Source of the DNA: Thermofilum sp.
Lineage (GTDB): Archaea > Thermoproteota > Thermoprotei > Thermofilales > Thermofilaceae
NCBI GenBank assembly: GCA_020833575.1
Contig: JAJHRT010000003.1
Span: 1-32,368, forward strand
Length of the DNA stretch: 32,368 bases
Direction: 5' to 3'
Shown: positions 3,469-24,286 of the stretch, in pieces
Position numbering within the stretch: the stretch's first letter is position 1
How the letters are laid out: each line of letters starts with the position of its first letter
Program-made: the position numbers and the translations under genes
Notes under the pieces: model-generated
What the model saw: the letters and a program-made list of their open reading frames with translations, nothing else
Databases searched by the model: none
What the model was told of the DNA's origin: nothing

Positions 3469-4737
3469 ATGAGGGCTGATCTCGACGGGAAGTTACAGCT
3501 GTCGAGAAGGGATTTCCTGAGAGCTGTAGGATCGACAGCGCTTCTAGCATCCCTGAATTGGCCAGAGCTCTACAAGGTAGCGTTCTCGCAAGTAGCTTCT
3601 GGCGCGATAAACATTGTCTGGTTTGAAGCTCAGGACTGCGCGGGCAACACTACAGCGCTGATTCAGGCTACCTCCCCGGACCTCATAGACATTCTGGGTG
3701 GGAGCTTCCACCTGGTGGGGCCTGGCAGGGTGAAGCTGGCGTTTCACGAGACGGTAATGCCCGAGTGGGGTGAGAGCGCTCTCGACATAGCTAGGGCTGC
3801 GGCAGAGGGGAAGCTTGACCCCTTCGTTCTCGTGCTTGAGGGAAGCTTCCCGCAGGATGAGAAGGCTGGGGGGCCGCCCGGCAGCGACTACTACTGCTAC
3901 ATAGGGGAGGAGGGAGGGAAGCCCATCTCGTGCGTGGAGTGGATGCGGCGGCTGCTTCGCAGGGCCGTCGCCGTGGTATCGGTGGGCAACTGCGCCTCAT
4001 ACGGCGGCCTTGTTGCCAACAAGGTCATAGAGAGGGTTCCCGGCCTGCCCTCCTCCACATGGTCCGACAGCCCCACCGGAGCGGTAGGCTTCTTCGACGA
4101 CCCCATACGCGGCATAAAGGGTCTCGTCAGCCTGCTGCCGGAGGCAGAGCCCTTCAGGCGCTTCATAAGGGGTGAGTGCTCCCTGAAGCCCGGGGAGATA
4201 AGGTCTGACTGCAGGCCGGCGATGGCGGTTCCAGGCTGCCCGGCGAACGGTGACGGGCAGCTGAGGGCCCTCGCGAGCCTGGTTCTCTGGGCTCTGGGGG
4301 TGCTCCCGCTACCGGAGCTTGACGAGTACTGGCGCCCCAAGTTCATCTATGGTCGGACAGTTCACGAGCAGTGCCCGCGCGCGGGCTCCTACGCTGCGGG
4401 CGACTTCAGGCAGCGTCCCGGGGACAACGACTTCAGGTGTCTCTACGCTGTCGGCTGCAAGGGACCGATCTCCAACTGCCCGTGGAACAAGGTCGGCTGG
4501 GTTAACGGCGTCGGCGGACCCACGAGGACGGGTGGTGTGTGCATTGGCTGCACAATGCCAGGGTTCACGGACGCCTACGAGCCCTTCTACAAACCTCTCC
4601 AAGCCCCGCGGGTGCCCACAGGCCTTGAGGGCGCAGCAGCGGTCGCAGCGCTCCTCGCGGGCCTTGGCCTCGGCTACCTGACCTCTCGGGGCGTTGAGAA
4701 GGCTAAGGCTGAGGCCGAGAAGGGTGAGAAGGCATGA
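3469..4737 (+). CDS. hynS: [NiFe] hydrogenase small subunit, Tat-exported, C-terminal membrane anchor
   Basis: Twin-arginine signal SRRDFLRAVG; SVGNCASYGG, VPGCPANG, HEQCPR, CLYAVGCKGP, NCPW, CIGCTMPGF cluster-binding motifs; hydrophobic C-terminal segment AAAVAALLAGLGLGYL. Confidence 0.95.
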   Translation: MRADLDGKLQLSRRDFLRAVGSTALLASLNWPELYKVAFSQVASGAINIVWFEAQDCAGNTTALIQATSPDLIDILGGSFHLVGPGRVKLAFHETVMPEWGESALDIARAAAEGKLDPFVLVLEGSFPQDEKAGGPPGSDYYCYIGEEGGKPISCVEWMRRLLRRAVAVVSVGNCASYGGLVANKVIERVPGLPSSTWSDSPTGAVGFFDDPIRGIKGLVSLLPEAEPFRRFIRGECSLKPGEIRSDCRPAMAVPGCPANGDGQLRALASLVLWALGVLPLPELDEYWRPKFIYGRTVHEQCPRAGSYAAGDFRQRPGDNDFRCLYAVGCKGPISNCPWNKVGWVNGVGGPTRTGGVCIGCTMPGFTDAYEPFYKPLQAPRVPTGLEGAAAVAALLAGLGLGYLTSRGVEKAKAEAEKGEKA

Positions 4738-6524
4738 GCGTGAAGGAGCTGTTTATCGACCCGATCACGAGGATTGAGGGCCACCTAGCCCTTCGAGCTC
4801 TCGTCGACGTGAATACGCGCAAGCCTACTGACGTCTGGGTCTTCGCGACGATGTTCCGCGGCTTCGAGGTATTCCTGAGGGGCAGGCCGCCCGAGGACGC
4901 CATCCACATAACCTCGAGGATATGCGGTGTCTGCGGCGCTAGCCACGCTAACGCGGCCATGCACGCCGTGGACATGGCCTACGGCGTGGCGCCGGAGCCC
5001 CTGGGGGTCGCGCTCAGGAACATGGCCTTCGCGATGACTGACCACCTCTACGATCACCCGCTCATACTCAACATGCTGGGAGGCCCCGACTACAGCGAGG
5101 CCATTGTGAAGAAGCTCACCCCGAAGGTCTGGGCTGACGCGCAGAGGGTTGACGCGCCTCACAGGGACATACACGGCTTCGCGAAGATCGCGGACATAAT
5201 GAGGGCCCTGAACCCCATTGAGGGCAAGCTCTGGCAGCTCACGGTGAAGTACCAGAGGATAGCCAGGGAGGCCGGTGTCCTCATCTACGGGAGGCACAGC
5301 CACCCGTCAACGATCATCCCGGGAGGCATCTCGACGGACCTGTCCAACGCCGAGTACCTCCTCGTCGGCTACACGTACAGGCTCGTCAAGCTGACCGCCT
5401 GGGCCAAGTTCCTCTACGCCGTCTGGCAGGATCTCGTCTGGTTCTACGAGGAGCACGAGAACTACAGGGACCAGGGCACAACGTATAGAAGGCACAACAT
5501 GGTAAGCAGCGGCATATTCGACGACCCCGAGGAGTACTCCGCGCTCGACGGCTCCCCGGAGGACTTCTACAAGAACATCGACGAGGCTGCGGCGAAGAGA
5601 GTGGTCAAGCCCGGGGCCTTCGTGAACGGCGAGCTCGTCACCAAGAGCTACAAGGAGATCAACGTGAGCATAATGGAGTACGTGGGCGCGTCCTTCTACG
5701 AGGACTGGGCTGGGAAGTTCCCGCCCTACGCGGAGAACGACCCCGAGGGCAACAAGCTGCTATGGGGCAAGCAGGACCCAGCCTACCACCCGTGGAACAA
5801 GGTGACCATTCCGAAGCCCGGCGCTAGGGACTGGAACGGGAAGTACAACTGGGCGGCCACAGTGCGCTTCGTCTGGAAGGACGGGACGGTGGTGCCCTTC
5901 GAGGTGGGCCCAATCGCGCGCCTCACCGTCACGGCGTACCAGCCCAGCGACTTCGGCCCAGGCAACGGCGTGCTCAGAGTGACCCTGCCGAGGAGTGGCG
6001 GCGCCGAGGACCTCCCGCCCGCCGTGGTCGAGGAAATGACCCTGGAGTGGAAGGCTCCACCTTACTCAACCACGCTCCAGCGCGTGCTGGCCAGAGCCTT
6101 CAACGTGGCTATCGACGTGGCCGCCGCGTGGAAGAACCTGCTCGCGGCCATCGAGCTCGTGCGCGCTGGCAAGACCAAGACGTCGAGGCCCTGGAACCCG
6201 CCGGCGCGCAGAACCTTCGGCGTGGGCTTCACCGAGGCGTCCAGGGGCACTGTGAGGCACTGGGTCGTGCAGGAGGGAGGAAGGATTGTCAACTACCAGA
6301 TCCACGCGCCTACGACGGGCAACGTGTCCCCGAAGGACAAGTGGGGCATGTCGCCCTTCGAGCAGAGTGTTGCGAACAGCGTGATCACCGAGGAGGCTGG
6401 ACCTGACCACTGGGAGGGCCTCGACTTCGTCAGAGCGATTAGGTCCTTCGACCCATGCCTCGCGTGCGCTGTCCACATACAGTTTGGAGACGTGAAGACC
6501 GTGAAGAAGCTGATATACAGGTGA
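4734..6524 (+). CDS. hynL: [NiFe] hydrogenase large subunit
   Basis: RICGVCGASH (L1) and DPCLACAVH (L2) Ni-binding motifs; ATGA overlap with the small-subunit stop; 15-residue tail IQFGDVKTVKKLIYR after the predicted processing His. Confidence 0.97.
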   Translation: MSVKELFIDPITRIEGHLALRALVDVNTRKPTDVWVFATMFRGFEVFLRGRPPEDAIHITSRICGVCGASHANAAMHAVDMAYGVAPEPLGVALRNMAFAMTDHLYDHPLILNMLGGPDYSEAIVKKLTPKVWADAQRVDAPHRDIHGFAKIADIMRALNPIEGKLWQLTVKYQRIAREAGVLIYGRHSHPSTIIPGGISTDLSNAEYLLVGYTYRLVKLTAWAKFLYAVWQDLVWFYEEHENYRDQGTTYRRHNMVSSGIFDDPEEYSALDGSPEDFYKNIDEAAAKRVVKPGAFVNGELVTKSYKEINVSIMEYVGASFYEDWAGKFPPYAENDPEGNKLLWGKQDPAYHPWNKVTIPKPGARDWNGKYNWAATVRFVWKDGTVVPFEVGPIARLTVTAYQPSDFGPGNGVLRVTLPRSGGAEDLPPAVVEEMTLEWKAPPYSTTLQRVLARAFNVAIDVAAAWKNLLAAIELVRAGKTKTSRPWNPPARRTFGVGFTEASRGTVRHWVVQEGGRIVNYQIHAPTTGNVSPKDKWGMSPFEQSVANSVITEEAGPDHWEGLDFVRAIRSFDPCLACAVHIQFGDVKTVKKLIYR

Positions 6525-6530
6525 AAGAAA

Positions 6531-7319
6531 ATGGATATTTTTGAGCTTGCTATTTACATTTTACCGCCCTACGTAGTGGCGCTCTTCGCCTTCGGGGTAG
6601 CCTACAGGGTCTCAAGGTACATCTTCATGTTCAGAAGAGTCCCGGTGAGAAGGAGGCAGAGGCCAGCGTCAAAGCTCCTGGCAGGGCTAGTTAAAACCTT
6701 CCTAGACCCCCTCATCATCGATGCGCGTATGAGGAAGTCGGACTTCATAGGCGGCCTTATACTACTGCATATCCTTGGAGTGATACCGCTCATATTCCTC
6801 CTGGGGCAGCACGTTGCCATGTTCTCGTACTGGTTCCCGCCTTACTCCGTGCTGCGCCCCCTCTCCATACCCTCCTCTGCAACCTCTCCGGCGCTAACGC
6901 TCACAGCCCCCCTTAAGCCGGCGAGCGAGATGTCCTGGACGTTCGTTGAGAGCGTGTGGGGACCTCTCACGGTGATCCTCAACGGCGACCTACTTGCAGT
7001 CCTCGCCATGCTCGGCGTGTCGTATAAGATCGGCGATAAGCTGTGGAGAGCTTACAGGAGAGTGGGCCACGTCAGACTGGGGGATTTCGCAGCTCTGCTG
7101 CTGCTCCTAGCGATCCTCGTCACGGGATTCCTCGCCACCCACCACCTGCCCTCGGGAGACATCGTTACTTACAGGTTCGTGCTGGGCACGCACATCCTGC
7201 TGGCGGAGGTGCTGGTTGCGGTGCTACCCTTCACGAAGTTCTGGCACTTCGTTTTCGGCTACTGGTACGGCAAGCTCCACGAGTGGTATGACCTGAAGTA
7301 CAGGAGGGGTGCCCTATGA
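6531..7319 (+). CDS. isp1: Membrane cytochrome-b-like hydrogenase subunit (Isp1/NarI-like)
   Basis: Several hydrophobic helices with His residues (LLHILGVIPLIFLLGQH, FLATHHLPSGD, GTHILLAEVL); located between the hydrogenase large subunit and the HdrD-like gene; 4-nt overlap with the next gene. Confidence 0.78.
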   Translation: MDIFELAIYILPPYVVALFAFGVAYRVSRYIFMFRRVPVRRRQRPASKLLAGLVKTFLDPLIIDARMRKSDFIGGLILLHILGVIPLIFLLGQHVAMFSYWFPPYSVLRPLSIPSSATSPALTLTAPLKPASEMSWTFVESVWGPLTVILNGDLLAVLAMLGVSYKIGDKLWRAYRRVGHVRLGDFAALLLLLAILVTGFLATHHLPSGDIVTYRFVLGTHILLAEVLVAVLPFTKFWHFVFGYWYGKLHEWYDLKYRRGAL

Positions 7320-8659
7320 GCGGCTGGGAGGCTTTCAGCCCTGATACCCTCAGAAGCGAGGCTAAAGCCATAGCAGGCAGGCTCAACCCAGTGCTCCTCC
7401 ACTTCGTAGAGGACTGTGTCGGCTGTGCGCTCTGCGAGGTAAACTGCCCGTACACCCCGGCTGGGGAGGAATACGGGCCTGTAGAGAAGGCCGAGCCCCT
7501 CAGGAGGATCGTGAGAGGCCAGGTCTTCCTGGCGGCGAAGGTCCTGCCGTGGCTCTTCGGCGCGAGGTTGCCGCGCAGCGCGGAGGAGCTCGACAGGTGG
7601 GCTGAGCTCGCGTACCGCTGCACCAACTGCGGGCTGTGCTACATAACATGCCCCTTCGGGATACACAGCGGCACCATGATACAGCACCTGAGGTACTCCC
7701 TCGCGAGGACTGGCCGCATCCCCACGCTGCTCAAGATGATGATGGACCTGGAGGCCTCTGGAAACGTACTGTCAGTCGAGGGCTTCAGCAAGGTGTGGTC
7801 CGAGCTCCTGGGGAAGCTAGAAGGGCTGGGCGTGTCCTTCGACAGAAAGGGTGCGAAGTACGTCTACCTGCCATCCCTGGCAGAAGCCCTGATAACGCCC
7901 GGCGCGCTGGTTGGCACGGCGAAGATTCTGAACAAGCTGGGTCTCGACTGGACTATGCCCAGCAAGCCCTTATCCGTGCGGGCGCCTATCGCGAACCTGG
8001 CGGGCGACAGCGGGGCCGCGCTAGAGGTCACGAGGAGGATAGTCGACTACGTCGCCGGGATCGGCGCTTCCACCGTGGTATTGAGCGACGGAGGCTACCC
8101 GTACCGGTTCCTCAGGTTCGACGCCCCCGCCTTACTCGGGAAGCCCCTAGGCTTCGAGGTGGTCCACATCGTTGAGCTGCTGCACGAGGCCCTGAGAAAG
8201 GGCTCGCTCAAGCTGAGGGAGGTCGACCAGAAGATCACCTGGCACAGCCCCTGCCAGCTGGGGAGGATGGGAGGCCTTATCGAGGAGCCCGCAGAGGTGC
8301 TGAGCTCGACCTCTAAGAACTTCGTAAAGCTGGAGAGCCACGGCCTCCTTAGCAAGTGCTGCGGCGGAGGCAACGCTATAGCTTGCGTGGTTCCACCGAC
8401 CATCGAGATGTTCGAAGGCCTGCTGGGAGGCAAGATCCCCATCTCGGAGAAGGAGAAGGTCTTCCTCGACAAGCTCTACAAGGACATGCTGATAGCCAGC
8501 AAGGCTAAGGTCGACGAGATTAGGAAGAGTGGCGCATCGACTGTTATCACGGCCTGCGTGGGCTGCGTCCACACGCTGCAGCTGGCGAGCAAAGCCCACG
8601 GGCTAGGAGTGGAGATAAAGACGCTCCCCGAGTACATAGCAGAACTGCTTCCAGAGTAG
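7316..8659 (+). CDS. isp2: HdrD/DsrK-like iron-sulfur subunit (Isp2) with two ferredoxin-type clusters and a CCG domain
   Basis: CVGCALCEVNCPY and CTNCGLCYITCPFG 4Fe-4S motifs; HSPCQLGR...SKCCGGGN...ACVGCVHTL cysteine-rich CCG domain. Confidence 0.88.
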   Translation: MSGWEAFSPDTLRSEAKAIAGRLNPVLLHFVEDCVGCALCEVNCPYTPAGEEYGPVEKAEPLRRIVRGQVFLAAKVLPWLFGARLPRSAEELDRWAELAYRCTNCGLCYITCPFGIHSGTMIQHLRYSLARTGRIPTLLKMMMDLEASGNVLSVEGFSKVWSELLGKLEGLGVSFDRKGAKYVYLPSLAEALITPGALVGTAKILNKLGLDWTMPSKPLSVRAPIANLAGDSGAALEVTRRIVDYVAGIGASTVVLSDGGYPYRFLRFDAPALLGKPLGFEVVHIVELLHEALRKGSLKLREVDQKITWHSPCQLGRMGGLIEEPAEVLSSTSKNFVKLESHGLLSKCCGGGNAIACVVPPTIEMFEGLLGGKIPISEKEKVFLDKLYKDMLIASKAKVDEIRKSGASTVITACVGCVHTLQLASKAHGLGVEIKTLPEYIAELLPE

Positions 8660-8740: not shown

Positions 8741-8811
8741 TCTCAAGATGGATCAGAGGTACTCCTGCTCATCATTTCTCAGCAAGGCTATGTTACATCA
8801 TCTCCTTGAGA
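8741..8811 (-). ncRNA. C/D box sRNA (dual 2'-O-methylation guide)
   Basis: Minus strand: TCTCAAGGAG-ATGATGT(C)-AACATAGCCTTG(12 nt)-CTGA(D')-GAA-ATGATGA(C')-GCAGGAGTACCT(12 nt)-CTGA(D)-TCCATCTTGAGA. Terminal TCTCAAG/CTTGAGA stem. Intergenic, just 3' of hel308. Confidence 0.88.
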
Positions 8812-8823
8812 TAGTTCTCGCAG

Positions 8824-11043
8824 TTAGTGCGGATAAAGGTATTCGTCGAGCTGGGACTGTCCTGAAGCCTCCTCCAGCACTTCGCGCTCCTCACCGGCCT
8901 CCGCTCCGCCCTGAAGCTGTGCTTTGATCGCTCTCGCGAGTGAGGGTCCTATGCCGGGAACTCTGGCGAGGTCCCGCTCGCTGGCGGTCACCAGGTCGTA
9001 GAGCGACTTGAAGCCGTGGTTGAAGAGGCTCCTCGCCCTCACCCTGCCTATGCCGCGCAGGGACACGAGCTCGAGGAGCTCCTCCCTCACTCCGTGCTTT
9101 ATGCGCTTGCTCAGTATGCTGAGGTTGGCCGAGTGCTCGGGGAAGCCGGCGACCTCTGCCACCTGGGATAGCGAGTAAGCAACCCACTCGGCGGTCTGCG
9201 TTAAGGAGTAGATGTCCCCCGGGCCCACGTCGTAGCGCTCGACTATGACGTCCTCCCTGACCTCGTTTATCCAGTCCTCCAGCAACAGAGCTGTCTTCAG
9301 GCGTGAAAGGTACCACTCGTACTCAACCTCGTCCTCGGGCGGGCTGGGCAGCTCCTCCCCGCGGCTCTGCAGCAGCTCTTCAAGCTTGTCGATGTCCTCC
9401 TTTCTGACGCTGACGGTTGTCATGTCTGGCGTGGAAGCCAGCAGGAAGAGGTAGGAGAGAGTGCTGCAGCGCTTCTTGCTCTTGAAGAACTCCAGGCCCA
9501 TATGCGCCGTCATAGGGTCTATGTAAAGCTCGGCTACACGCTTGCCCACGGCCGTCGCCCTGATTCTCGCCCCCGTCCTCTCTAGGAAACCCGTGCTCAG
9601 TAGCCACCTGGTAACCTTCTCGACGGCGGCTTCGGCGGCGAGGGGGCTAAACTGGGCTGAGAAGAGGGTCCTCGAGAACACGCTTTTCAGGCTTTTCTCG
9701 TCCTTGATGCTGTCCTCTGTTGCCACCAGCGAGAGCACTTGCGACCTGAGCACCTGCTCGGAGCCCAGCTGGGAGAATATTCTCTCAGGCGAGGCGGCCA
9801 CGTACTCTTTCATGAGAAACTCCACCTCTCTGGCCGTCCTGGCGATGAGAACGGCTTCCCCCTCTAAGTCGTACTTCGGCCTCCCGGCGCGCCCAGCCAT
9901 CTGCTTGTACTCCATCACGGAGATTCTCTCATGGTAGCCCAGCTCGACGTTGTACCTGCGGTAGTCGGTTATGACTACACGCTTGGCGGGGAGGTTCACC
10001 CCAGCCGAGAGGGTTGGTGTGGCCACCACGACTTTGAGGACGCGCTCCCTGAAGAGCTGCTCGACTATGCTTCTCGAGGTGGAGGAGAGCCCTGCGTGGT
10101 GAAAGGCGACACCGCTTTTCACGAGGTTTGCCAGCTCCTCAGACACCTTATCGCTGTGGCTCTGGAGTATTCTTGCGGCAGCTGCTGCCAAGAGCCTGTG
10201 CTCGCGCTCGCTCAGGAACTTGCGAGCTGCTGCAGAAACCCTCCGCGCGTCACTGACAGCTGCTCTCCGAGTTGGGGAGAACACCAGCGCCTGACCCCCC
10301 TCCTCGAGCGTGTCCAGAACGAGGTCCACGAGAGCCCCCTCCCTAGGCTCCACTTCCTTAACTCCGCCGTCGTGGAAGTATATCGCTCCGTCGTAGTAGA
10401 CTCCCTCGCGGAGCTTCACCGGCCGCCAGTCGACCCTCACGGGCTTTGCTCCCAGCCAGCTCGCTATCTCCTCCAGGTTCCTGACTGTGGCGCTGAGCCC
10501 CAGGAGCTGCACGTTGGGGAAGGAGCTCCTTATCCGCGTCAGAAGCATCTCTAGCACAGCCCCTCTCTTCTCAAGCCCCACCACGTGAATCTCATCGGCG
10601 ACAACCAGCGATATGCTGCTGAACCACGGCGCTTTGTGCCTAAGCAGGCTGTCAGCTTTCTCATTGGTAGTGATGATCACGTCGTACTTCCCCAGCTCCG
10701 GGTCCGAGGAGTCGTAGTCACCTGTACTGAGGGCCACTTTGTAGCCAAGGGGGCTGAAGACCTCCCTAAACTCCTGGTACTTCTCCGCCGCAAGCGCCCT
10801 GAGAGGTGCCAGGTAGAGCGCCTTACCCCCGCTTACGAGGTGGCGTAGTGCCGCGAGAACGGCGATGAGGGTTTTTCCAGAAGCCGTGGGGGCTGCCAGA
10901 ACTATGCTCTCTCCATCCAGCACGCCGCTCTTAATCGCCGCTTCCTGGGTTGGGTAGAGCTTCTCAATCTTCAGCACGTCGAGCAGCTTCCTCGCAACCT
11001 CCTCGCCGAAGTACTTTGAGAGCACATCGAGTACTTCTGTCAT
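8824..11043 (-). CDS. hel308: Hel308/Hjm-type superfamily 2 DNA helicase
   Basis: Walker A APTASGKT, DEIH box, AGRAGRPKYD motif VI, C-terminal helix-hairpin-helix (GIGRVRARSLFNHGF, VPGIGPSLARAI). Confidence 0.95.
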   Translation of the reverse strand: MTEVLDVLSKYFGEEVARKLLDVLKIEKLYPTQEAAIKSGVLDGESIVLAAPTASGKTLIAVLAALRHLVSGGKALYLAPLRALAAEKYQEFREVFSPLGYKVALSTGDYDSSDPELGKYDVIITTNEKADSLLRHKAPWFSSISLVVADEIHVVGLEKRGAVLEMLLTRIRSSFPNVQLLGLSATVRNLEEIASWLGAKPVRVDWRPVKLREGVYYDGAIYFHDGGVKEVEPREGALVDLVLDTLEEGGQALVFSPTRRAAVSDARRVSAAARKFLSEREHRLLAAAAARILQSHSDKVSEELANLVKSGVAFHHAGLSSTSRSIVEQLFRERVLKVVVATPTLSAGVNLPAKRVVITDYRRYNVELGYHERISVMEYKQMAGRAGRPKYDLEGEAVLIARTAREVEFLMKEYVAASPERIFSQLGSEQVLRSQVLSLVATEDSIKDEKSLKSVFSRTLFSAQFSPLAAEAAVEKVTRWLLSTGFLERTGARIRATAVGKRVAELYIDPMTAHMGLEFFKSKKRCSTLSYLFLLASTPDMTTVSVRKEDIDKLEELLQSRGEELPSPPEDEVEYEWYLSRLKTALLLEDWINEVREDVIVERYDVGPGDIYSLTQTAEWVAYSLSQVAEVAGFPEHSANLSILSKRIKHGVREELLELVSLRGIGRVRARSLFNHGFKSLYDLVTASERDLARVPGIGPSLARAIKAQLQGGAEAGEEREVLEEASGQSQLDEYLYPH

Positions 11044-24168: not shown

Positions 24169-24286
24169 GCGGGGGTGCCCGAGCTAGGTCAAAGGGGGCG
24201 GACCGCGAGGGCCCACACTCAGGATGCATAAATGGGAGCTCCGCTGGCGTTGGCCTGCCCGGGTTCGAATCCCGGCCCCCGCACCA
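24169..24286 (+). tRNA. tRNA-Leu(CAG), class II, with two predicted 15-nt introns (24202-24216, 24224-24238) and encoded CCA
   Basis: Acceptor GCGGGGG/CCCCCGC, discriminator A plus CCA, T-arm CCGGG-TTCGAAT-CCCGG, D-arm CCCGAGCTAGGTCAAAGGGG, long variable arm TGGCGTTGGCCTG. Anticodon arm GCGGA-CTCAGGC-TCCGC forms only after removal of two segments, each with a bulge-helix-bulge. Confidence 0.9.

Follow-up and report, generated by a model that had tools for sequence, protein, structure and literature searches.

A conserved, unannotated C/D box sRNA gene in Thermofilum with a D guide predicted to target A638 of 16S rRNA

RNA-seq has been used to catalogue C/D box sRNAs, which guide 2'-O-methylation, in seven archaea (PMC4644070), and a review of these archaeal sRNAs is available (PMC7994747). 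The criterion used in the catalogue is a run of at least nine consecutive Watson-Crick pairs to rRNA across the N+5 site, and roughly a third of the archaeal C/D sRNAs match no rRNA significantly (PMC4644070). According to the summary of Tripp et al. 2017 given in PMC7994747, about 20% of the genes carry a promoter-like motif of their own, and many lie across or just beyond the 3' end of an open reading frame.

The stretch of DNA analysed here ('the window', 32,368 nucleotides) is one contig (C29) of a 1.12-Mb, 81%-complete Thermofilum assembly. An sRNA on its minus strand has the RUGAUGA/CUGA boxes, guides in the 10-12 nt range, length of 50-70 nt, N+5 rule, 16S target and location just past an open reading frame that are common to the catalogued sRNAs (PMC4644070, PMC7994747). 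It departs from them in that only one of its two guides forms nine such Watson-Crick pairs. On sequence grounds, we put at about 93% the probability that this locus is an archaeal C/D box sRNA whose D guide directs 2'-O-methylation of 16S A638. The sRNA is almost certainly real, conserved and unannotated; its class is well known, and it has one well-supported methylation target. Archaeal C/D box sRNAs are under-annotated, and this one, which escapes the curated Rfam cut-offs, yields a testable methylation prediction. A published sRNA catalogue for the source lineage was not found in the literature searched. Supplementary site lists aside, the texts of PMC4644070 and PMC7994747 name neither this sRNA nor Escherichia coli A676, the position to which A638 aligns. 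It is possible that A676 is already a listed site in Pyrobaculum or Thermoproteus; the guide sequence CCGGAGUACC would mark the same site in the Pyrobaculum calidifontis or Thermoproteus tenax catalogue.

The boxes described in the initial annotation are all present on the minus strand, in the order and at the spacing given there (Table 1). Read from 8811 to 8741, this strand is TCTCAAG GAG ATGATGT AACATAGCCTTG CTGA GAA ATGATGA GCAGGAGTACCT CTGA TCCAT CTTGAGA. The four-box block (8801-8753) thus has 12 nt from C to D', 3 nt between D' and C', and 12 nt from C' to D, which is the ordered C, D', C', D arrangement with 10-12 nt guides of an archaeal C/D sRNA. The last letter of box C does deviate, as had been pointed out; it is a U, and the same U occurs in four relatives (G002, G009, G010 and G011). 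A four-box descriptor at archaeal spacing matches once in the window and, even with relaxed boxes, not at all in 150 random sequences of equal length from a first-order Markov model.

Table 1. Coordinates of the sRNA gene, its elements and the adjoining helicase gene in the window
Feature	Position	Strand	Evidence or remark
Whole C/D box sRNA gene, including distal TCTCAAG/CTTGAGA arms	8741..8811	-	
Short terminal stem, 5' arm GGA beside box C	8803..8805	-	pairs UCC 8752-8750
Box C AUGAUGU	8795..8801	-	descriptor scan
D' guide AACAUAGCCUUG	8783..8794	-	target: candidates only
Box D' CUGA	8779..8782	-	descriptor scan
Spacer GAA between D' and C'	8778-8776	-	
Box C' AUGAUGA	8769..8775	-	descriptor scan
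D guide GCAGGAGUACCU	8757..8768	-	pairs own 16S 634-644
Box D CUGA	8753..8756	-	descriptor scan
Short terminal stem, 3' arm UCC beside box D	8750..8752	-	
hel308 helicase gene, upstream neighbour of the sRNA	8824..11043	-	NCBIfam match

The TCTCAAG/CTTGAGA arms first taken for the closing stem exist exactly, at 8811-8805 and 8747-8741, but the 7-bp stem that they form is absent from the relatives compared. What is conserved is the short stem next to the boxes, which joins C and D as in a k-turn. It reads GGA/UCC here and GGC/GCC, AGG/CCU or AUUG/CAAU in relatives (read by eye), so that the letters change on both sides. The RNA is probably closed by the short GGA/UCC stem, lengthened by an extension particular to the source genome, rather than by a 7-bp stem typical of the family. 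The minimum-energy fold of the lone strand contains no k-turn because k-turn pairs are not modelled.

A covariance search had been proposed as a check, and C/D models do match the locus, yet all of them score under their gathering cut-offs; at those thresholds no Rfam family in a scan of the window covers the sRNA. In a permissive search of 201 bases, most matches, including all of the leading ones, were to archaeal C/D sRNA families. The best were snoPyro_CD (RF00095) at 35.8 bits and sR1 (RF01152) at 32.5 bits, against a gathering threshold of 45 bits for both, and the locus thus falls short of the at least 45 bits that define snoPyro_CD. Both models align at full length over the boxes and terminal stem; however, their guides are unlike those found here, and the likeness is one of architecture and not that of a specific orthologue. 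From the match to the C/D models, the mature RNA probably extends from about 8805 to 8750, and the sequence suggests a length of about 55-70 nt.

Conservation of the boxes and guides in relatives had been named as a further check. The boxes and the D guide are conserved across genera; the flanks are not. In blastn searches with a 116-base query against 100 relatives, weak but clustered matches fall precisely over the boxes and D guide in G002, G004, G006, G009, G010 and G011. The C'-D spacing is 12 nt in all seven sequences found by blastn, independently of any pattern. A pattern derived from these homologues (TGANGANNNGRAGTACCTCTGA, one mismatch allowed) was then scanned over 400 genomes of the phylum and matched in 23: 7 of 7 in the genus, 6 others in the family, 2 in the order and 8 in the class. 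A reversed control pattern matched in 3 of the 400. The 12-nt C'-D spacing in all 23 genomes follows from the pattern definition and, because the pattern holds this spacing and most of the guide, matches found by it alone describe distribution rather than independent conservation. Homologues are present in each of the seven genomes sampled from the genus, in most of the family and in some members of the order and class. Upstream of the pattern, box C and usually box D' can be read in sequences from Thermofilaceae, the order and f13; both are degenerate in sequences from f9, a second class-level family. Matches to the pattern in bacteria (Bacillus, Brevibacterium and others) were taken as chance. 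In one genome of the same class (L010, G030:C20) the match is to another C/D-like RNA, ATGATGAGCGTTGCCCTTGCTGATAAATGATGAGCCCCTTTGGACTGA, which seems to be a distinct sRNA picked up through the common box sequence.

A search of both 12-mers against the rRNAs and tRNAs, also suggested at the outset, gave a clear 16S target for the D guide and none above chance for D'. The D guide can form a G634:U pair with its own 16S rRNA followed by ten uninterrupted Watson-Crick pairs at G635-G644; with the first letter of box D opposite G633, twelve pairs run from 633 to 644 (-19.9 kcal/mol for the guide duplex). The ten Watson-Crick pairs include the N+5 site and are more than the nine used in the catalogue. 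Shuffling the guide at constant composition gives ten contiguous pairs in 0.9% of cases, and the overall score in none of 150. The predicted N+5 nucleotide is an A, as anticipated. When scores are averaged across ten species, no rRNA position surpasses this 16S site (10.57, versus 9.01 or less in eight shuffles). In three genomes from other genera of the Thermofilaceae (G009, G012 and G016), the guide-16S duplex has one A.C mismatch at 641; in G011 it has one mismatch at 643.

In Thermofilum the guide letter opposite 16S position 643 is A and the rRNA letter U; four f9 genomes have C and G instead. The guide letter thus tracks the rRNA, such that only the 16S of its own clade lets a guide pair along its full length. 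A third state, G-C, is probable in f13, where guides were compared with 16S sequences from sister genera because the f13 assemblies themselves carry no 16S. Guide-rRNA covariation is a stronger argument for the 16S target than the shuffle statistics. Neither guide appears to be directed at tRNA: among the 30 tRNA genes of the genome, the D guide reaches at best 8 pairs and the D' guide 7, nothing better than rRNA offers.

The RNA had been described as a dual-guide sRNA. Its anatomy fits that description, but function is supported for the D guide only, since the best match of the D' guide in its own genome does not exceed chance. No D' match in the genome's rRNA attains nine pairs; the best has eight Watson-Crick pairs, and it is equalled by 23 of 150 (15%) shuffled guides. 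Nor were significant targets for both guides, usually within 100 nt of each other in double-guide sRNAs, found here. For the G predicted to be methylated through D', no site above chance emerged; there are two candidates. One is 23S 480-487, with eight Watson-Crick pairs and an N+5 nucleotide at G484 (E. coli G425). The other is 16S 865-872, with seven Watson-Crick pairs, one G:U pair and an N+5 nucleotide at G869 (E. coli G903, helix 27); adding the first letter of box D' extends it to eight Watson-Crick pairs and one G:U at 864-872. Either the D' guide has no rRNA target in this genome or its target is a weak one, with these two sites leading. An orphan D' guide would be ordinary, given the proportion of archaeal C/D sRNAs that match no rRNA significantly.

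The D' guides of relatives have a GCGCC core in common that is absent from the guide of the source genome. Over all aligned rRNA positions, these guides jointly score highest at 23S about 1819-1826 (mean 7.04, versus 5.2 or less in eight shuffles), where G016 forms 11 contiguous pairs and the source genome six. A site at 16S 690-696 was considered as the ancestral target of D' and discarded, its register to box D' being inconsistent between species. One doubtful scenario is that D' drifted in the source species from an older target near 23S 1819 to 16S helix 27 (864-872). The sRNA would then bridge helix 23 (A638) and helix 27 (G869), helping rRNA to fold, like a chaperone, in addition to guiding methylation, and the drift would be guide turnover caught inside one genus. 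Four f13 loci of genus g29 (L087-L090) carry the same D guide and a different, conserved D' guide, CAGAGGAUUAUG, which has no strong target in the rRNA of related genera.

The peak near 23S 1819 bears on the choice of D target, because it lies 22 nt from a second site with which the D guide can pair, 23S AGGUGCCCCUGG (1797-1807; one mismatch, one G:U, -15.1 kcal/mol). The RNA could thus be a classical double guide for 23S rRNA, its 16S match being secondary. This we regard as improbable. The D:23S duplex is much weaker than that with 16S, places its G:U pair at the N+5 site with a mismatch nearby, and has as its partner in the source genome only the six D' pairs noted above. Moreover, the Thermofilaceae and f9 genomes that were compared have U as the 23S letter corresponding to 16S 643. 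The guide therefore changes with 16S while 23S stays constant, which favours 16S A638 as the D target. Even less credible is the idea that the locus yields no functional RNA and that its C/D-like sequence, in a spacer at a gene end, is decayed or arose by chance. UGA and CUGA words at gene ends do make box-like sequences common, and the D' guide lacks a significant target; however, the guide and boxes are kept across genera where flanking sequence is not, the 150 random controls gave no match, and the guide covaries with rRNA.

The architecture, conservation, pairing and covariation described above are read from sequence, as are the protein genes; expression, processing, RNP assembly and methylation are proposed to follow the archaeal C/D scheme. 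Boxes C and D would fold as a k-turn and C' and D' as a k-loop, and L7Ae, Nop5 and fibrillarin would bind both motifs. With the D guide paired to 16S 633-644, fibrillarin would 2'-O-methylate A638, whose partner in the guide lies five positions upstream of box D. The genome encodes the full C/D RNP protein set: fibrillarin and Nop5 genes are adjacent on another contig (C11), and two L7Ae-family genes are also present.

The gap between the hel308 stop codon (8824-8826) and the sRNA arm is 12 nt, as originally measured. The hel308, mcm and gins23 calls are backed by NCBIfam; hel308 and gins23 score below curated cut-offs, yet these are their best matches. In the 3-kb loci examined for hel308, the sRNA adjoins this gene in all seven members of the genus and in G011, but its neighbour is a different gene in further genera of the family (G009, G010, G012, G015 and G016). 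Linkage to hel308 is thus restricted to the genus and one relative. It follows hel308 on the same strand in G000, G001, G002, G005, G006 and G011; in G003 and G004 it is on the opposite strand, facing hel308. A functional link to hel308 was rejected because of these other locations and the flipped strand in two species. In G003, a GTPase-like gene is followed by the sRNA facing hel308; in G005, hel308 is followed by the sRNA facing seemingly the same gene. The flip (L082 and L086 versus L081) would be due either to a small inversion or to transposition of the sRNA gene inside the genus. In a single sRNA, the D guide thus changes along with its rRNA target, the D' guide turns over and the orientation of the gene relative to its neighbour flips.

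Given these arrangements, the gins23-mcm-hel308 transcript put forward as the source of the RNA is only one possibility. Most likely, the sRNA would be cut from a read-through transcript of whichever gene is upstream, hel308 in this case. Because few C/D genes have a promoter-like motif of their own and many trail open reading frames, such processing is plausible, though the evidence does not require it. A TATA-like CTTTATC lies inside hel308 at 8838-8832 on the minus strand, 24-30 nt ahead of the stem. A scan for bacterial-type promoters and terminators returned nothing, as expected for an archaeal host.

Two other features of the window are worth recording. An intron-containing tRNA gene on the plus strand (24169-24283; 38.6 bits, above gathering) was overlooked by ARAGORN in bacterial mode and by the fast whole-window Rfam scan; it presumably resembles tRNA-Leu. 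Also on the plus strand, at 4734-8659, genes for a hydrogenase large subunit (NiFeSe-type match), a TmcC/HmcE-like membrane subunit and a DsrK/TmcB/HmcF-like iron-sulfur protein occur in a row, which suggests a membrane hydrogenase-heterodisulfide-type complex.
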